Shown here piece by piece: positions 35,830 through 42,795 of a stretch of 64,000 bases of DNA. How positions within the stretch are numbered: the stretch's first letter is position 1; each line of letters opens with the position of its first letter. Both the position numbers and the translations under genes were made by a program. Under the pieces are notes generated by a model, which made no database searches, was not told the origin of the DNA, and was given only the letters and a program-made list of their open reading frames with translations. Source of the stretch: Thermoanaerobaculia bacterium (GTDB lineage Bacteria; Acidobacteriota; Thermoanaerobaculia; Multivoradales; J023); the NCBI GenBank assembly GCA_028066595.1, contig JALCBJ010000004.1, positions 49,935 through 113,934 on the forward strand. Direction: 5' to 3'.

Positions 35830-36042
35830 CTGACCTCGCGTTTTCGACGTTTCCCGACAGAAGGTAGCGAGGGTATCAGCGCCGTCGTCAGAGGGTGTCG
35901 AGCTTCGCCCTGGATCTCGGACGTCCAGCCGACCGCGTCACCGCATCGAGCTGCGAAACGTTGCCGATCAGGCGAAGGTCGAGTGCGGCGGACTACGATA
36001 CAGTCAGGCGGTTTCAGATCATGCCTGCAATGGATCGCTGAC

Positions 36043-39000
36043 GTGAAGCTACTTCGCCAAAGCCGGCTCTTCTACCAGGGAGGCCACTCCGACAAGGTCT
36101 ATGAAGTGGACTTGGCGGAGCTCGACGACGACCGTTGTGTGGTCAACTTTCGCTACGGTCGTCGAGGTACCACCCTACGCGAGGGTACGAAGACGACGGC
36201 GCCAGTTTCGAGGGACAAGGCGGAACAGGTCTTCGACCGCTTGGTGGAGGCGAAGCGCAAGAAAGGATACCGGAGCGAAGGCGAACCGGCGCCCGAGGCC
36301 GAGCAGCAGGAGCCAGCAGACGCGGGGGCAAACTCGGACGCCATCCCCGTATTGCTGAAACGCCTCGAATCTACCCAGCCGGCCGGAGATCGGAAGAAGA
36401 AACGCTGGCGACGAAAGGCCGCCGAACCGCCGCTAGAACGTACGGTGTGGCGGCTCGGTGAGCGCCGGGCGAGAGCTGCCGTGGCGCCTTTGGCACGCTT
36501 GGCACGCGACGTTCTCGCCGCGGGCCAGGACGATGCATCCACCAACCTCCGCTACTGCCTGGCCTGGGCTCTAGGACGCATCGGTGATCCCGCGGCCGCG
36601 GACGTGGTGGATCAGCTGTCGCGAGACGAGGAGGAGGCGGTACGCCGCATCGCCTCCGAAGCCATGCGCGCCCTGCTACCCACCGAGGCGCGCTCGAAGT
36701 ACGTGGACAGCGTCGTCGACCACCTGCCGAGCGAGCTGGCTGCGGCCGTGCGCTCGGGCGACACCGACGGTACCTGGCACGCGCTCGAAGAAGTCGTCTC
36801 CGCCGCCGGGAGAGATCCAGCGCCGCTCGTGGTGATCGAGCAGCTCTACCTGGTCGACTCCTACCCCGCCGCACGCTCCGCAGTGCTCCGTTGGAGTCGC
36901 GTCGCACCCTTCACACCGCCGTTCTTCCGGCGGCTTCGCCATCTCTACAAGGCCGCGGAGTTTCGCCGCGATCCGGAGCTCTTCGGCTTGCTCGCCCATC
37001 GGATCGAGACCGAGGACTACGGTGTGTACAACCACGGATACTCCAACTCGACCTACTTCGATGGTCGTTGGATCCAGGTCTCCGAGGAGCTGGCGAAGGA
37101 TCGCCCACGGCGTGCCTTCTCGAGCCGCACCAAGGACTACCTGCGGTTGCGGTCGGCCCGCACCCTACGCCGGCTCGGAGAGTTGGGAGATCCGGACTTC
37201 GTCGACATGGCGGTGGGTGTGCTGCTGGAGTTTCGCGACGAGCACGCTCAGCGGGTGCGGGAGTCGGAACGCTACTACTGGAGTCAGCGAAGTACGATCC
37301 GGGTCGTCTACCCGGCCTGGTCGGCTTACCTGGCGTTCAATCTCGTGCTCCACCGCCACAGCCCACGCTTCGAGCTGCGACCACCCGGGCGCTACTGGTC
37401 GCTACGCGAAGGACAGACAGTCGACGCCACAGTTCCGGCGATACGCGAGGAGGCGTTTCCGTCCCTCTGGGATCGACGTCCCGAAGCCCTCGTCCACCTG
37501 CTGCTCCACAGCTGCTGCGCGCCCGTGCACGACTTCGCGGCCCGAGCCTTGAGATCCCACGAAGACGCGCTAGGTCGGCTCGAGCTCGGTCAGCTCCTCG
37601 GCCTCCTTCAGGCGCCCTACGAGCCGACCCAACGGCTCGGCCTCGACGAAGCCCGTCGGCGTCACCAGCCCGACGAACCGGATCTCGACCTGGTCCGCGC
37701 ACTTTTCGACTGTGGCCTCGCCGAGGCGCGCGGCGTCGCCGCTGAATGGATCGCCGCCCGCCCACAGAGCTACCTCGTCGAGCTCGACTTCATCATCCAC
37801 CTGCTATTCCATCCCCACGCCGATGTGCGCGCGGCGGGACGCTCCTCGGTCCTCGACAACACGTTGCCACCCCAGGTATCGCGGCAAGCACTCTTCGGGC
37901 GGCTGGTGGCCGAGCTGTTGGCACTGAAACCGGACGAGGCCGAGCCCTCCGAGCCTGTTGTGGATCGTTCGGAGGATGTCGCGCGGGAGGTCGTGGCCTT
38001 CGTTGCGCAGGCCTTTCACGAGTTGCTGCACGTGGTCGGTCTCGACGTCGTACGCGAGCTCCTCGCCCATTCCGTGACGGAAGTCCAGGAGCTAGGTGCC
38101 CGGGCTCTCGTGGATCACGAGATTCCCGCAGAAGAGCTCCCGGCCGAGCTATTCGAGACTTTGCTGGATTCGCCCGCAGAGCCCATTCGTGCATTGGCGG
38201 TACAACTCATCGGCCGGTTGCCCGAGGAGCGGATCACCGAGCGCGAGGAGTTGATCCTGTCGTTCTGTGTTGCCGAATCGGCGGCGGTCCGGCAGGCGGC
38301 GCGTCCGATTCTCGCGCGCCTGGCACCCGCCCATCCTAGCTTTGCGTCGGCTGTCGCAGCTGCGTTGGCAGTACGGTTGATGCGTAAGGAGCGCCACGAT
38401 GGGCTCTATGCCGACCTCGTGGCCATGGTGTCGGAAGACCTGCGACCGGCCATGGACTCTCTCAGCGCCGAGCTGACGTACCGGCTACTTCGCTCCGGCT
38501 CCTCCGGAGCCCACCGTCTCGGCGCACGCTTGCTGGCGCACTCGGTTTCCCTCAGCGACCTGTCGGTCCGCAAGATGGCTCTCTTGGCCCGACATGAGAT
38601 GAAAGACGTACGCGACGCAGTCTGGCAGCGTCTCGGCGCCGACCTGGAGCGCACGCGCAGCCACCTCGCGGACGCCCTCTTGGCCCTCGACGGTCCTTGG
38701 CCCGACAGCAGGGAGCAGGGTTTTGTCTTCTTTCGCGAGCACTTCGATGCCGAGGATTGGACGCCGCAGCTCCTCGTTTCGCTGTGCGACAGCGTGCGCG
38801 ACGACGTGCGGCAGTTCGGTCGCGATCTGATCCAACGCTTCTTCGTGGCGGACAACGGGCCCGAGTACCTACTGAAACTGAGCCAACACCCTGCCGCCGA
38901 CGTCCAGCTGTTCGCCACCCACTACCTCGAGCGCTTCGCCGCGGGTCGTCCGGATCGCATCGCCGAGCTGACCACTTACTTCACGACGGTTCTTTCCGCC

Positions 39001-39264
39001 GTTTACCGCGGACGTGTGGCCAAGGACCGTATCTTTGGTTTTCTGCGCGAGCAGGCCGTCGATCGCGACACAGCGGAGATCGTGCTACCGCTCCTCGAAC
39101 GGATCTCGCTGACGGTCGCGCTGGGCGATCGCTCGACCGTCGTCGAGATACTGAACGAGATTCGCCGCACCCATCTCGATCTGCCCAGCCTGCTGCGTCC
39201 TCGGCCCGCCGAGCTCCGGCCACCGCGCCGACAGACCAACGCCGCGGCCCCGGGTGCCGCGTGA
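36043..39264 (+). CDS. WGR-domain HEAT/ARM-repeat protein of the retron operon
   Basis: This is a 1073-residue protein. I place the start at GTG 36043 because the WGR domain begins at once (KLLRQSRLFYQGGHSDKVYE, then CVVNFRYGRRGTTL). An in-frame GTG at 35983 would add 20 residues without homology. WGR covers about residues 1-75; the same module binds DNA ends in PARP proteins. From about 95 to 1050 there are long arrays of HEAT/ARM-like helices (RYCLAWALGRIGDPAAADVV, EAVRRIASEAMRAL, RDDVRQFGRDLIQRF). The tail is basic. Its TGA shares one base with the ATG of the SWIM gene, so the two are co-translated. In retrons I recall as type XIII this is the 'ARM' partner. An effector or scaffold role is inference. 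Confidence 0.85.
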   Translation: MKLLRQSRLFYQGGHSDKVYEVDLAELDDDRCVVNFRYGRRGTTLREGTKTTAPVSRDKAEQVFDRLVEAKRKKGYRSEGEPAPEAEQQEPADAGANSDAIPVLLKRLESTQPAGDRKKKRWRRKAAEPPLERTVWRLGERRARAAVAPLARLARDVLAAGQDDASTNLRYCLAWALGRIGDPAAADVVDQLSRDEEEAVRRIASEAMRALLPTEARSKYVDSVVDHLPSELAAAVRSGDTDGTWHALEEVVSAAGRDPAPLVVIEQLYLVDSYPAARSAVLRWSRVAPFTPPFFRRLRHLYKAAEFRRDPELFGLLAHRIETEDYGVYNHGYSNSTYFDGRWIQVSEELAKDRPRRAFSSRTKDYLRLRSARTLRRLGELGDPDFVDMAVGVLLEFRDEHAQRVRESERYYWSQRSTIRVVYPAWSAYLAFNLVLHRHSPRFELRPPGRYWSLREGQTVDATVPAIREEAFPSLWDRRPEALVHLLLHSCCAPVHDFAARALRSHEDALGRLELGQLLGLLQAPYEPTQRLGLDEARRRHQPDEPDLDLVRALFDCGLAEARGVAAEWIAARPQSYLVELDFIIHLLFHPHADVRAAGRSSVLDNTLPPQVSRQALFGRLVAELLALKPDEAEPSEPVVDRSEDVAREVVAFVAQAFHELLHVVGLDVVRELLAHSVTEVQELGARALVDHEIPAEELPAELFETLLDSPAEPIRALAVQLIGRLPEERITEREELILSFCVAESAAVRQAARPILARLAPAHPSFASAVAAALAVRLMRKERHDGLYADLVAMVSEDLRPAMDSLSAELTYRLLRSGSSGAHRLGARLLAHSVSLSDLSVRKMALLARHEMKDVRDAVWQRLGADLERTRSHLADALLALDGPWPDSREQGFVFFREHFDAEDWTPQLLVSLCDSVRDDVRQFGRDLIQRFFVADNGPEYLLKLSQHPAADVQLFATHYLERFAAGRPDRIAELTTYFTTVLSAVYRGRVAKDRIFGFLREQAVDRDTAEIVLPLLERISLTVALGDRSTVVEILNEIRRTHLDLPSLLRPRPAELRPPRRQTNAAAPGAA

Positions 39265-40904
39265 TGCGCTTCGAGTACCGATACCACGGCTCGTCGGCGG
39301 TCGCCGCGACGCCCGGCGCCACATCGATGTCGTTCGTCCCCGACGCGTACCGCGAGCCTACGTATTTCGACGGCAAGCTGAACCTCAAGGTTCCGTTCCG
39401 CGAAGCGATCTCGGCACTTCATGCGGTGGTCGTCTCCGACCACCGCTTCCAAGCCCGCGACACGACAGCCTACAAGGAGTGGGCGGCGCAGCGGGAGTTG
39501 GAGGAGCTCGGCGAGCTGGCGGCCGGACAGGCAGAGGCCGCGGAACGCTACTCCGAGCTGGCCGCGGAGTTACGCACCCTTCGGGGACAGCGAAACGCGA
39601 TCATGGGTCCGTTCTACAAGGCTCAGCGCGAGTACTTCCAGTACCTCTATCGCAAGAACCGTGACTTCTGGTGGGTGCTCGACCCGGTGATCACCGTGCA
39701 TCCCGATCAGGTCTTTTTCGAGTGCTTCAGCCGCGACGAGTCGAGCTACGGTCGCCTCGGATGTGGCTATGAAGTCTTCGACCATCTCGGCGATCACGCC
39801 TGCGGTACCACCAACGTCGACTACTCGATGGCGCTCTACCAAGAGTTCCAGAAGATCCGCGGGTACAAGGAAACACGGCTGCAGGTCGACCCGAGCGGAT
39901 TCGAGGTGGAGACCACCGGCGATGAGGCCTATAAAGAGGTCAAGATCGACCTGCCGGAGAGCTGGGTTCGGGGCTTCCTCCAGGTGAGCTCCGCCATGAC
40001 CCTGCCCATGCGACGCCTCGAGTTGCACCCCATGGACGTGCACAACCTCTGCTTCCTGCTGCGCCGCAAGAAGGAGCGCAACGGCCCGAGATCGCTCCGC
40101 TTCCTGCTGACGGACGGCGAACCGGTACGTGTGCTCGTGGAACCCTGGAATCACGAGCTGATCTGTCCGCGCTCCATATACCAGGGGCAAGACGACGAGA
40201 TCCGCCTGTGGGGTCGGCGAAGACTCCATATCCTGGAACGCTTGATCCCGGTCGCGCGACGTTTCGTCGTCCACCTCCTCGGTACAGGCATGCCCTCCTT
40301 CTTCGTCGCGGATTTGGGGGACATGAGCTTCACACTCGGACTGTCGGGATGGACGCGGAACGATTGGTCGCGCGTCGGCAACTTCGACCTGATGGCCGCG
40401 CGTACGGAAGTGGACAGCGTCACCCAGCGGCGTGTCTTTGACGCCTTGCGCGAGACCTGGGTCGAAGACACGGACGATCTGGCCCTTCGCCTGCGACTCG
40501 ATCGAAGCGTTGTTCTCGGTGCACTCCAGGCCTATGCCCAGGCCGGCCGCGCCATCTACGATCTGGAACACCAGGCCTATCGCGTGCGGGAGCTGACCCG
40601 CGAGCCACTGCCAGTGGAGTCCCTGCGCTTTGCCAACGAGCGGGAAGCCGAGGCCTCGAAGTTGGTCGCGACCGTCGAGCCGCGGGTCGTCGAGGAAGCA
40701 CACGGCCGGCGCACGCTGGAAGCTGTGGTCGCAGACGGCCATCGCCAGCATCAGGTGCGAGTCCAGATCGATGCCGATGAGCGTCTGGTAGACGCCACCT
40801 GCGAATGCTCCTTCTTTTTCCGCAACAAGCTCTTCCAGGGCCCCTGCTGCCATATCTTGGCGCTGCGCATGGCCGACGCGCGCCGGCAGGGGTCCAGGAC
40901 ATGA
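39264..40904 (+). CDS. SWIM zinc-finger protein (WHSWIM-like) of the retron operon
   Basis: This is a 546-residue protein from ATG 39264; an upstream in-frame extension to 38697 runs through the previous gene and is rejected. The N-terminal part is helical and charged and the middle is mixed. A helical segment at about 392-437 (TQRRVFDALRETWVEDTDDL, LRLDRSVVLGALQAY) could be a winged helix. The C-terminus is a SWIM zinc finger with Cys513, Cys515, Cys528 and His530 in CECSFFF...GPCCHILALR. SWIM domains bind nucleic acid or protein. The a1 arm of the retron RNA begins 24 bases after its stop. Position and domains match the 'WHSWIM' component of type XIII retrons as I remember it; the mechanism is unknown. 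Confidence 0.85.
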   Translation: MRFEYRYHGSSAVAATPGATSMSFVPDAYREPTYFDGKLNLKVPFREAISALHAVVVSDHRFQARDTTAYKEWAAQRELEELGELAAGQAEAAERYSELAAELRTLRGQRNAIMGPFYKAQREYFQYLYRKNRDFWWVLDPVITVHPDQVFFECFSRDESSYGRLGCGYEVFDHLGDHACGTTNVDYSMALYQEFQKIRGYKETRLQVDPSGFEVETTGDEAYKEVKIDLPESWVRGFLQVSSAMTLPMRRLELHPMDVHNLCFLLRRKKERNGPRSLRFLLTDGEPVRVLVEPWNHELICPRSIYQGQDDEIRLWGRRRLHILERLIPVARRFVVHLLGTGMPSFFVADLGDMSFTLGLSGWTRNDWSRVGNFDLMAARTEVDSVTQRRVFDALRETWVEDTDDLALRLRLDRSVVLGALQAYAQAGRAIYDLEHQAYRVRELTREPLPVESLRFANEREAEASKLVATVEPRVVEEAHGRRTLEAVVADGHRQHQVRVQIDADERLVDATCECSFFFRNKLFQGPCCHILALRMADARRQGSRT

Positions 40905-40928
40905 CTCGACTCTGGAACAGGTTTCGGC

Positions 40929-41169
40929 CGATGCGGCGGGGCGCCGCGCCTCCAGGCGCCTTCCCTTGCAACCCGGTCGGCGGATCGCCGTCCATGCACG
41001 CTGCCCCTCCCTGCCTCACTGGTGTGCTCTCGACTATGCGGGGGCAGACCACCGGTGCGCATTGCGGTTTCAATGCCGTACATTCAATGGCGCACCGGTG
41101 GTCGCCCCCGCGGGGAGTTGAGCACCCCAGTCCCAAGAGGTCTTCGAAGGGTGGCGCCCCGCCGCATCG
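40929..41169 (+). ncRNA. Retron msr-msd non-coding RNA
   Basis: This RNA is the template and primer for the retron reverse transcriptase. The ends are a perfect 17-base inverted pair: a1 CGATGCGGCGGGGCGCC at 40929-40945 and a2 at 41153-41169. Three more pairs form beyond it if one C (40928) is bulged. The msr part follows a1 with small hairpins: GCGCC, TCCA, GGCGC at 40946-40959 and CGGCG, GAT, CGCCG at about 40979-40991. The msd part is the long hairpin at 41038-41111. This order (a1, msr hairpins, msd hairpin, a2, then RT) is the canonical retron arrangement. The exact branching G and the cDNA ends cannot be fixed from sequence. No open frame of note occupies this strand. Confidence 0.9.
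41038..41111 (+). ncRNA. msd hairpin (template for msDNA)
   Basis: Paired segments are GCGGGGGC (41038-41045) with GCCCCCGC (41104-41111), then ACCACCGGTGCGC (41048-41060) with its exact complement (41090-41102), then ATTG (41061-41064) with CAAT (41085-41088). They are interrupted by an AG/C internal loop and one bulged G. The loop spans 41065-41084. The inner GCATTG and CAATGC (41059-41064, 41071-41076) offer an alternative small hairpin. Confidence 0.88.
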
Positions 41170-41202
41170 CCGTATCTCTCCGCCGGATTCGGACGGCACG
41201 TC

Positions 41203-42795
41203 ATGAGCGACGACACCGCCACCGGCGTCCTGGATCTCGACGAACCGCCGAAAGATCGCAAGGAGCTCTGGGAGCGCATCCGAACCACCTCGCGGGACGA
41301 GGTGATCGCCGTCGAGATGATGCGCCTCGGCTTCTGGGACGAGCCGAAGAAGCCCAGTGCACCCACCAGACTCATCCGCCGCATGGGGGAGCTGCAGCGG
41401 GAGATGCGCGAGCTGGCCGATGTGGCGGCCGGTGTCGCCGACCACGAAGCAGCACTCCGGCGCATCCGCGAGAAACGGATGGCCGAAGCACGGCGGAAAC
41501 GAGTCGAGACGAGGGAGCGTCAGGAGCGCGAGCGCCGGGAGCGTGCCGAGGCCTGGAGGCAGCGCAGGCAGCGCGAGATCCTCTATCTCGGAGCCGGTGT
41601 CTCCGCCGGGCTCAGCCAGGCCGGTGACGATGAACGACGACGCGGAAACGACGCACGTCTCCGCGAGCACGGTCTTCCGATCCTGCACTCCGCAGGCGAC
41701 GTCGCTGCAGCGATGGAGATCGACCTCGGCGAGTTGCGATTTCTTTCGTTCCATCGAAGAGTCTCCGAGACCTCCCACTATCGTCGCTTCGAGATTCCCA
41801 AGAAGACCGGTGGGCGGCGCCTCATTTCGGCGCCCATGCCACGGCTGAAAGATGCTCAGCGCTGGTTGCTCGTCGAGGTCCTAGGCAAGGTAGAAGTGCA
41901 CCGGGCGGCTCACGGCTTCCTGCCGGGACGCTCCATCGTCACCAACGCCGAACCCCATGTAGGCCGGGACGTGGTGATCAATTTAGACCTGAAGGATTTC
42001 TTCCCCTCCATCACGTACCGGCGGGTGAAAGGAGTCTTTCGCGCCCTCGGTTACTGCGAGGAGGTGTCGACGATCTTCGGTTTGCTCGCTACCGAGCCCG
42101 ATGTCGATACCTTGGAGCTCGATGGCCGCGTTCTCCACGTCCACCGCGGCGAACGACATCTGCCCCAGGGCTCGCCAGCCAGCCCTGCGATCACCAACGT
42201 CCTCTGCCGCCGATTCGACCACCATCTCTCGGGTACCGCCTCGGTCCACGGCTTCGCCTACAGTCGCTATGCCGACGACCTGACCTTCTCCGGCTCGGGC
42301 GAGGCTGCCGCCAAGGTCGGCAACCTGCTACGGGACGTCCGGCGGGTGATCGACTTCCACGACCTCCGGATTCACGAAGGCAAGACCCGAGTCATGCGCA
42401 AGGGCCGACGTCAAGAAGTAACCGGCCTGACTGTGAATCGCGCGATCGGCGTCGATCGCAAGAGCCTGCGCAGGCTGCGCGCGGTTCTCTTTCAGATCGA
42501 GAAGGACGGTCCCGAGGGCAAGATCTGGAACGGTGTCGGCGGAGAGAGCGGAGGCGACGTGTTCTCGTCGCTCCTCGGATATGCCAACTTCGTACGCATG
42601 GTGGACCGTGCAAAGGGCGGCGTTCTGGTGGAACGGATCCAGTCGCTGCGCCGAAAGTACGATCATCAGATGCCGGTGACACCTCGCTATCCGAAGAAGA
42701 CACCGAGCTGGAAGCTGTCCCCAGACGGCGAGGGAACGGTAGTAGACACCAAGAAAGAAGAACGACGGCCGTGGTGGATGTTCTGGAAACGCTGA
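41203..42795 (+). CDS. Retron reverse transcriptase, Mx162-like
   Basis: This is a 530-residue retron RT. It carries the diagnostic region-X motif NAEPH at 248-252 (consensus NAxxH), the catalytic YADD at 356-359 and the region-Y VTG at 406-408. INLDLKDFFPSI and LPQGSPASPAITN form RT motifs 3 and 4. About 170 residues precede the RT fold: a charged coiled-coil (RRIREKRMAEARRKRVETRE) leading into LYLGAGVSAGL and a helical domain. The same layout, including an LGAGV block, is known to me from Myxococcus Mx162 RT. It primes on the 2'-OH of an msr guanosine and copies msd. The gene starts 34 bases after a2. It is the last plus-strand gene of the unit and faces a convergent gene. Confidence 0.96.
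   Translation: MSDDTATGVLDLDEPPKDRKELWERIRTTSRDEVIAVEMMRLGFWDEPKKPSAPTRLIRRMGELQREMRELADVAAGVADHEAALRRIREKRMAEARRKRVETRERQERERRERAEAWRQRRQREILYLGAGVSAGLSQAGDDERRRGNDARLREHGLPILHSAGDVAAAMEIDLGELRFLSFHRRVSETSHYRRFEIPKKTGGRRLISAPMPRLKDAQRWLLVEVLGKVEVHRAAHGFLPGRSIVTNAEPHVGRDVVINLDLKDFFPSITYRRVKGVFRALGYCEEVSTIFGLLATEPDVDTLELDGRVLHVHRGERHLPQGSPASPAITNVLCRRFDHHLSGTASVHGFAYSRYADDLTFSGSGEAAAKVGNLLRDVRRVIDFHDLRIHEGKTRVMRKGRRQEVTGLTVNRAIGVDRKSLRRLRAVLFQIEKDGPEGKIWNGVGGESGGDVFSSLLGYANFVRMVDRAKGGVLVERIQSLRRKYDHQMPVTPRYPKKTPSWKLSPDGEGTVVDTKKEERRPWWMFWKR

Follow-up and report, generated by a model that had tools for sequence, protein, structure and literature searches.

The locus described here lies in a 64,000-nucleotide stretch of DNA from a Thermoanaerobaculia bacterium, which was analysed as a whole and is called the window. 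Three protein genes of this locus are located on the forward strand. The first (35983 to 39264) encodes a WGR and HEAT-repeat protein of 1093 aa, a type XIII accessory/effector gene; the second (39264 to 40904) encodes a SWIM protein of 546 aa; and the third (41203 to 42795) encodes a type XIII reverse transcriptase (RT) of 530 aa. The stop codon at 40904 and the RT start codon ATG at 41203 are separated by 298 unannotated nucleotides, as an earlier sequence-only reading had stated. The putative msr-msd RNA gene, from a1 to a2, occupies positions 40929 to 41169 of this gap on the same strand.

Retrons are bacterial genome elements linked to phage defence, whose RNA is copied into single-stranded DNA. 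The type XIII retron is a class defined by bioinformatics. Using PADLOC, the first protein matched WGR_XIII (E 0, 1079 bits), the second matched SWIM_XIII (E 1.2e-226, 751 bits), and the RT matched RT_XIII (588 bits, E 2.8e-177; second-best model, 304 bits). HEAT-ARM_XIII was also matched at the locus (128 bits), and all three proteins covered the PADLOC type XIII models almost end to end. Pfam identified WGR and HEAT_2 in the first product, SWIM in the second, and RVT_1 in the RT. The sequence-only reading had recognized the order a1, msr, msd, a2 ahead of a retron RT and left the type unnamed; the RT_XIII match and the covariation described below support this order, and we assign the locus to type XIII.

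The a1 arm (40929 to 40945, +; CGATGCGGCGGGGCGCC) and positions 41153 to 41169 (GGCGCCCCGCCGCATCG) are exact reverse complements, consistent with the perfect 17-base inverted pair reported previously. When mismatches are allowed, the inverted pair grows to 24 nt (40929 to 40952 with 41146 to 41169, 88%). A window-specific hairpin or duplication at 40946 to 40962 interrupts a1. The helix then resumes with CCCUU (40963 to 40967) paired to AAGGG (41147 to 41151) and reaches the candidate branching guanosine at 40968, and the a2 arm comprises AAGGG plus 41153 to 41169 (41147 to 41169, +). On the a1 side, GGCGCC is repeated (40940 to 40945 and 40955 to 40960), which gives a2 two pairing registers and also an extra hairpin that was absent from the aligned homologues.

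Inside this helix, all on the forward strand, are a conserved msr hairpin (40975 to 40993; 40975 to 40982 with 40986 to 40993), a basal msd stem (41018 to 41131), and an apical msd hairpin (41038 to 41111) whose pairing is kept while its sequence varies. The basal stem is formed by ACUGG (41018 to 41022) with CCAGU (41127 to 41131), and by CUC (41027 to 41029) with GAG (41120 to 41122). Both the small hairpins and the long hairpin had been noticed before. The smaller msr hairpins were seen in our fold, and 41041 to 41060 and 41090 to 41109 were 90% complementary. The earlier placement of msd at 41038 to 41111 was correct for the apical hairpin but too short in extent, as a conserved basal stem lies below it and the predicted cDNA covers about 41005 to 41146. 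The minimum free energy of 40926 to 41172 was −160 kcal/mol. Because the region is GC-rich, this value alone is not decisive; the z-score, which corrects for composition, was −11.1, and none of 200 dinucleotide shuffles was as stable. Searches for sigma-70 promoters and terminators gave no useful match, and the terminator scan of the RNA gap was empty.

Homologous RNAs were collected from other genomes. A single genome scan identified 61 RT loci, and type XIII neighbours were present at about 35 of these. The upstream regions were searched for a long-range stem (span of about 200 to 270 nt) enclosing a hairpin of 45 to 95 nt, and this plan was present in most type XIII loci. An HMM built from 25 RNAs retrieved the RNA in all main lineages. 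Altogether, homologous RNA was found at approximately 35 type XIII loci from at least six phyla, including Acidobacteriota, Myxococcota, Cyanobacteria, Bacteroidota, Planctomycetota, and Pseudomonadota. At the cyanobacterial loci, the RNA directly follows the SWIM gene and is located about 2 kb ahead of the RT. The aligned RNAs share (C)CUUGCAA, the msr hairpin, the ACUGG/CCAGU basal stem, a UUGAGUUGAGC segment, and CGAAGG before a2. Model R1 matched 40929 to 41169 with 176 bits (E 3.8e-47), the window sequence being part of the R1 seed alignment; at other type XIII loci, the homologous RNA was detected independently. The diverged-RT loci L034/L065, L035, L036, and L070 showed no convincing RNA of the window's type XIII family; L034 (JAJVIN01, Thermoanaerobaculia) and L065 (genome G089, of the window's class) gave identical results and identical distances. 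A search of Rfam at gathering and permissive thresholds with the window and two homologous loci gave no match to a retron family. PADLOC has msr-msd covariance models of its own (PMC9252829).

An absence of covariation in the a1/a2 and msd stems among homologues had been named in advance as evidence against the RNA, and we examined the aligned RNAs for it; covariation was found. The RNAs were aligned using MAFFT without structural information, and the consensus structure was taken from the alignment. RNAalifold detected at least one compensatory change in 35 of the 41 core pairs. Standard pairs made up 89.0% of cells in the 41-pair core, as against 65.3% in shuffles, which preserve column make-up but not relatedness, and 33 to 43% in slid registers, a control that leans in favour of pairing because the structure was derived from the alignment. 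Cells changed on both sides numbered 384, compared with 122 in shuffles. In the msr hairpin (helix 1), 99.7% of cells were paired, with change on both sides in four of eight pairs. In the basal msd stem (helix 2), 95% of cells were paired and eight of ten pairs showed compensatory change, as did all 23 pairs of the apical msd hairpin (helices 3 to 5). Up to five pair types occur per pair in the apical stem, a variety that, judged from the alignment, would be difficult to explain otherwise.

The a1/a2 helix was tested apart from the core, because the a1/a2 sequences, which are unrelated between lineages, do not align. Among 26 representatives, the mean pairing energy of a1 with its own a2 was −32.9 kcal/mol, versus −15.9 kcal/mol with the a2 of others. 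The own a2 was the best partner in 20 of the 26, and the observed mean was reached in 0 of 20,000 permutations. In 22 of 36 RNAs, CCUU/AAGG forms the four innermost pairs, and the compensated variants CUUU/AAAG, UCUU/AAGA, and ACUU/AAGU also occur. As read from these comparisons, the a1/a2, msr, and msd helices have been maintained through compensatory change across type XIII loci.

The candidate branching guanosine, G40968 (+), is located in a UUGC context (40966 to 40969) directly 3′ of the a1/a2 helix. It is invariant in 36 aligned RNAs, and the context is UAGC in Nannocystis. In retrons, the guanosine used for priming immediately follows the a1/a2 helix and has a UAGC-like context (PMC6868368). 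Position and invariance suggest that G40968 is the branching guanosine.

The ends of the cDNA were deduced from natural insertions. The genome of Myxococcales UBA2376 carries a 140-nt copy, 100% identical to nt 80 to 219 of its own retron RNA, on another contig (L128:301-440), where it sits inside an unrelated gene. Nucleotide 219 is the G that immediately precedes AAGG, the expected cDNA start, and the right end of the copy lies within 0 to 2 nt of this position. CG at the right junction is common to the target, so the copied end falls at nt 217 to 219, with a 2-nt ambiguity. In the related genome G488, the same gene has no insert; the flanks are contiguous, the net difference is 138 nt, and the reading frame is kept. 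This contiguous empty site speaks against an assembly chimera as the source of the copy. A full-length DNA copy with the ends expected of msDNA is present in a relative. Mapped from this copy, the reverse-transcribed region of the window is predicted to span 41005 to 41146 on the reverse strand; at the 3′ end the alignment is offset by one position, and the actual base is G41146. The window cDNA would therefore be about 140 nt long, with its 5′ end opposite 41146 and its 3′ end near 41005.

Partial copies were found in N. poenicansa (nt 89 to 209), N. pusilla (nt 87 to 209), and N. bainbridge (nt 108 to 175), and N. exedens carries a number of them, several starting at nt 71 to 85. The loci with msd cDNA copies are L128, L129, L131, and L089 to L093. 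In most of the partial copies, the cDNA 5′ end is missing, and the left ends of those in Nannocystis are consistent with the predicted cDNA 3′ end. Their boundaries were read from direct alignments and not from the covariance model (CM); their constant right edge at CM position 205 was attributed to model topology and disregarded. These natural insertions reveal msDNA ends without experiment, and they show that the cDNA of a type XIII retron can enter the chromosome. The window's own genome contains a 40-nt match to 41054 to 41093 (90%, E 4e-8) at L095:1501-1540 (G000:C202:30911-30950), flanked by genes named by eye as malate synthase-like and isocitrate lyase-like. This match is possibly an old fragment of a cDNA copy; a search of six other genomes of the family did not find the 40-nt msd piece.

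Several loci contain tandem msr-msd arrays, situated between the SWIM and RT genes. Four copies are present at L066:3115-4142 (−), and two each at L067:136-711, L068:857-1446, and L018:5045-5572. Between the copies of an array, the msr core is 76 to 98% identical and the apical msd is 45 to 79% identical. The a1/a2 arms of the copies differ, yet are self-complementary within each copy. The msd arms of the tandem RNAs are divergent, and one RT may make several msDNAs.

The solved structure nearest to the window RT was the Ec86 retron RT (E 3e-39). The retron motifs NAxxH (TNAEPH, region X), YADD, and VTG (region Y) are present in the translation, and the Drt2 model score was far below the Drt2 cut-off. 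An N-terminal extension of about 150 aa carries a conserved EMxRLGFW motif common to the RT homologues; its interpretation as a PIP-box was dropped, as the spacing is incompatible with QxxLxxFF. The C-terminal tail of the window RT is RRPWWMFWKR. In most type XIII RTs, a low-complexity linker leads into a basic, tryptophan-rich tail (KKWWKLF/W; the corresponding region of the window is 42748 to 42795), whereas the C-terminus is hydrophobic in the RTs of L011, L022, L027, and L032. The tail is perhaps a membrane or partner anchor. N. exedens encodes a second type XIII-like RT (L082:1276-2577 (−), RT_XIII E 1.8e-159), and the sequence upstream of it resembles, by eye, the ends of SWIM and WGR genes. 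No RNA of the window's type XIII family was found near this RT.

The two partner proteins differ in conservation. Identity to the window SWIM protein is mostly 52 to 62% across phyla, the lowest value being 40%, and identity to the window WGR-HEAT protein is 25 to 40%. The AlphaFold model of the SWIM protein (pLDDT 79.6, pTM 0.75) matched PCNA in Foldseek (E 2e-10). In VIA, it matched archaeal PCNA chain 2izo_B with Z 20.0 (rmsd 2.6 Å, 232 of 244 residues, model residues 34 to 363) and human PCNA with Z 19.4. Residues 34 to 365 are predicted to form a complete two-domain PCNA-like sliding-clamp fold, followed by a helical, winged-helix-like stretch and a SWIM zinc finger (residues 498 to 534). 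Pfam gave no PCNA sequence match in this protein, so the PCNA likeness is a claim about the fold of a predicted model. Among the papers searched, none described a PCNA-like fold in the type XIII SWIM protein, and none relevant to type XIII itself, to arrays of ncRNAs, or to sliding clamps in retrons was found. In the AlphaFold model of the WGR-HEAT protein (pLDDT 86), a helical solenoid follows a small beta domain at the N-terminus. No catalytic domain was identifiable in either protein. In cyanobacteria, proteins classified by eye as NYN-like and RNase III-like are encoded between the RNA and the RT (L002:5189-6963, L009:5237-6963, and L005:5511-6916). The RNase III-like protein could process the a1/a2 duplex, or both proteins may be unrelated neighbours.

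A structure located between two co-directional genes might be an untranslated leader, attenuator, or terminator that controls the RT gene and is not a template, and in some cyanobacterial relatives a T run after a2 would make a terminator. The cyanobacterial RNA is, however, separated from the RT by other genes, some loci hold two to four RNA copies, msd copies with cDNA-like ends occur elsewhere in genomes, and the window gap yielded no terminator, all of which makes a regulatory element very improbable. We consider it just as improbable that the RNA serves a DRT-like RT as template for concatemeric or protein-primed DNA instead of branched msDNA. Some defence RTs (DRT2 and DRT9) do use an adjacent structured RNA for this kind of synthesis, but the window RT is of the retron type both by profile and by its nearest solved structures, the a1/a2 ends adjoin the invariant G of UUGC/UAGC, and the insertion in UBA2376 comprises one unit whose ends are fixed. 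A genuine retron that is now inactive in the window strain is unlikely. The interruption of a1 at 40946 to 40962 would fit such a loss, and the one msd copy found elsewhere in the genome is short and 90% identical, so recent copying is unsupported; against this, all three reading frames are open and complete, YADD and the other retron motifs are intact, and so is the a1/a2 and msd pairing. We put the probability that 40929 to 41169 is the msr-msd ncRNA of a complete type XIII retron at about 0.94. The unannotated gap thereby becomes a defined RNA gene with a predicted branch point and predicted cDNA ends, and the type XIII RNA now has a model, supported by covariation, that detects it across phyla.

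For the type XIII retron at this locus, we propose that a1 and a2 pair and that the 2′-OH of G40968 would prime the RT, copying proceeding from G41146 back to about 41005. The cDNA of about 140 nt would fold as a single long hairpin and remain linked to the msr RNA. More speculatively, the RT, the msDNA, and the two partner proteins would form one complex that holds the partners inactive, with the predicted clamp-fold SWIM protein and the WGR protein as its DNA-engaging parts. Interference by a phage with the msDNA or with replication would release the partners, which would act on DNA, and growth would stop. This partner-protein mechanism, including a phage-defence role, is suggested by predicted models and by analogy, and abortive infection is invoked because of the analogy with other retron systems. 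Toxicity may reside in the WGR-HEAT protein as the effector, with the PCNA-like SWIM protein partnering the msDNA as a sensor or antitoxin; the two roles may also be exchanged. The conserved SWIM and variable WGR-HEAT proteins are as expected if SWIM contacts the conserved RNA/RT core, with WGR-HEAT forming the variable arm, but neither protein has an identifiable catalytic domain, and we regard such a division of roles as possible, somewhat short of probable. Equally tentative is our proposal that type XIII retrons are clamp retrons, in which a SWIM-fused PCNA-like clamp is the most conserved partner, msDNA-RT controls the loading of the clamp and WGR-HEAT on DNA, and the RNA arrays of some lineages supply one RT with several different msDNAs. 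If the predicted PCNA-like fold of SWIM holds, type XIII retrons would link msDNA to a replication-clamp protein, and this link would offer a testable idea for phage sensing or killing by type XIII retrons.

Retron-Eco1 (Ec86), whose RT is the nearest solved one, has the a1-msr-msd-a2 plan in common with the window locus and differs in its partner genes. The Ec86 RT is without the long N-terminal extension, its residue 8 aligning to residue 149 of the window RT, and Ec86 msDNA is shorter than that predicted for the window. Mxa1 (Mx162) and other myxobacterial retrons have, like the window locus, a long msDNA and an extended RT N-terminus (PMC6868368). Their priming context is CAGC, whereas the candidate context in the window is UUGC; the systems are likened by description.

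N. exedens DSM 71 (L024) has a type XIII RT plus an RNA of the window family. A backward count of 144 nt from the predicted start of its cDNA ends at nt 77, next to the left end (78 to 81) of the best partial genomic copy. The title of a 2002 paper, as given in the reference list of PMC6868368, announces a partial, likely retrotransposed msDNA copy in N. exedens. RT-Nex2 also has an extended N-terminus (PMC6868368). From the position reached by this count, the L024 retron is probably Retron-Nex2 (msDNA-Ne144).

The type XIII retron is a kind already known, and the window locus adds a further member. It has the same three proteins in one operon and an RT of the same clade as the type XIII retron of PADLOC. 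The RNA is located between SWIM and RT, as in most of the homologues found, and the window locus differs by the additional hairpin or duplication beside a1.
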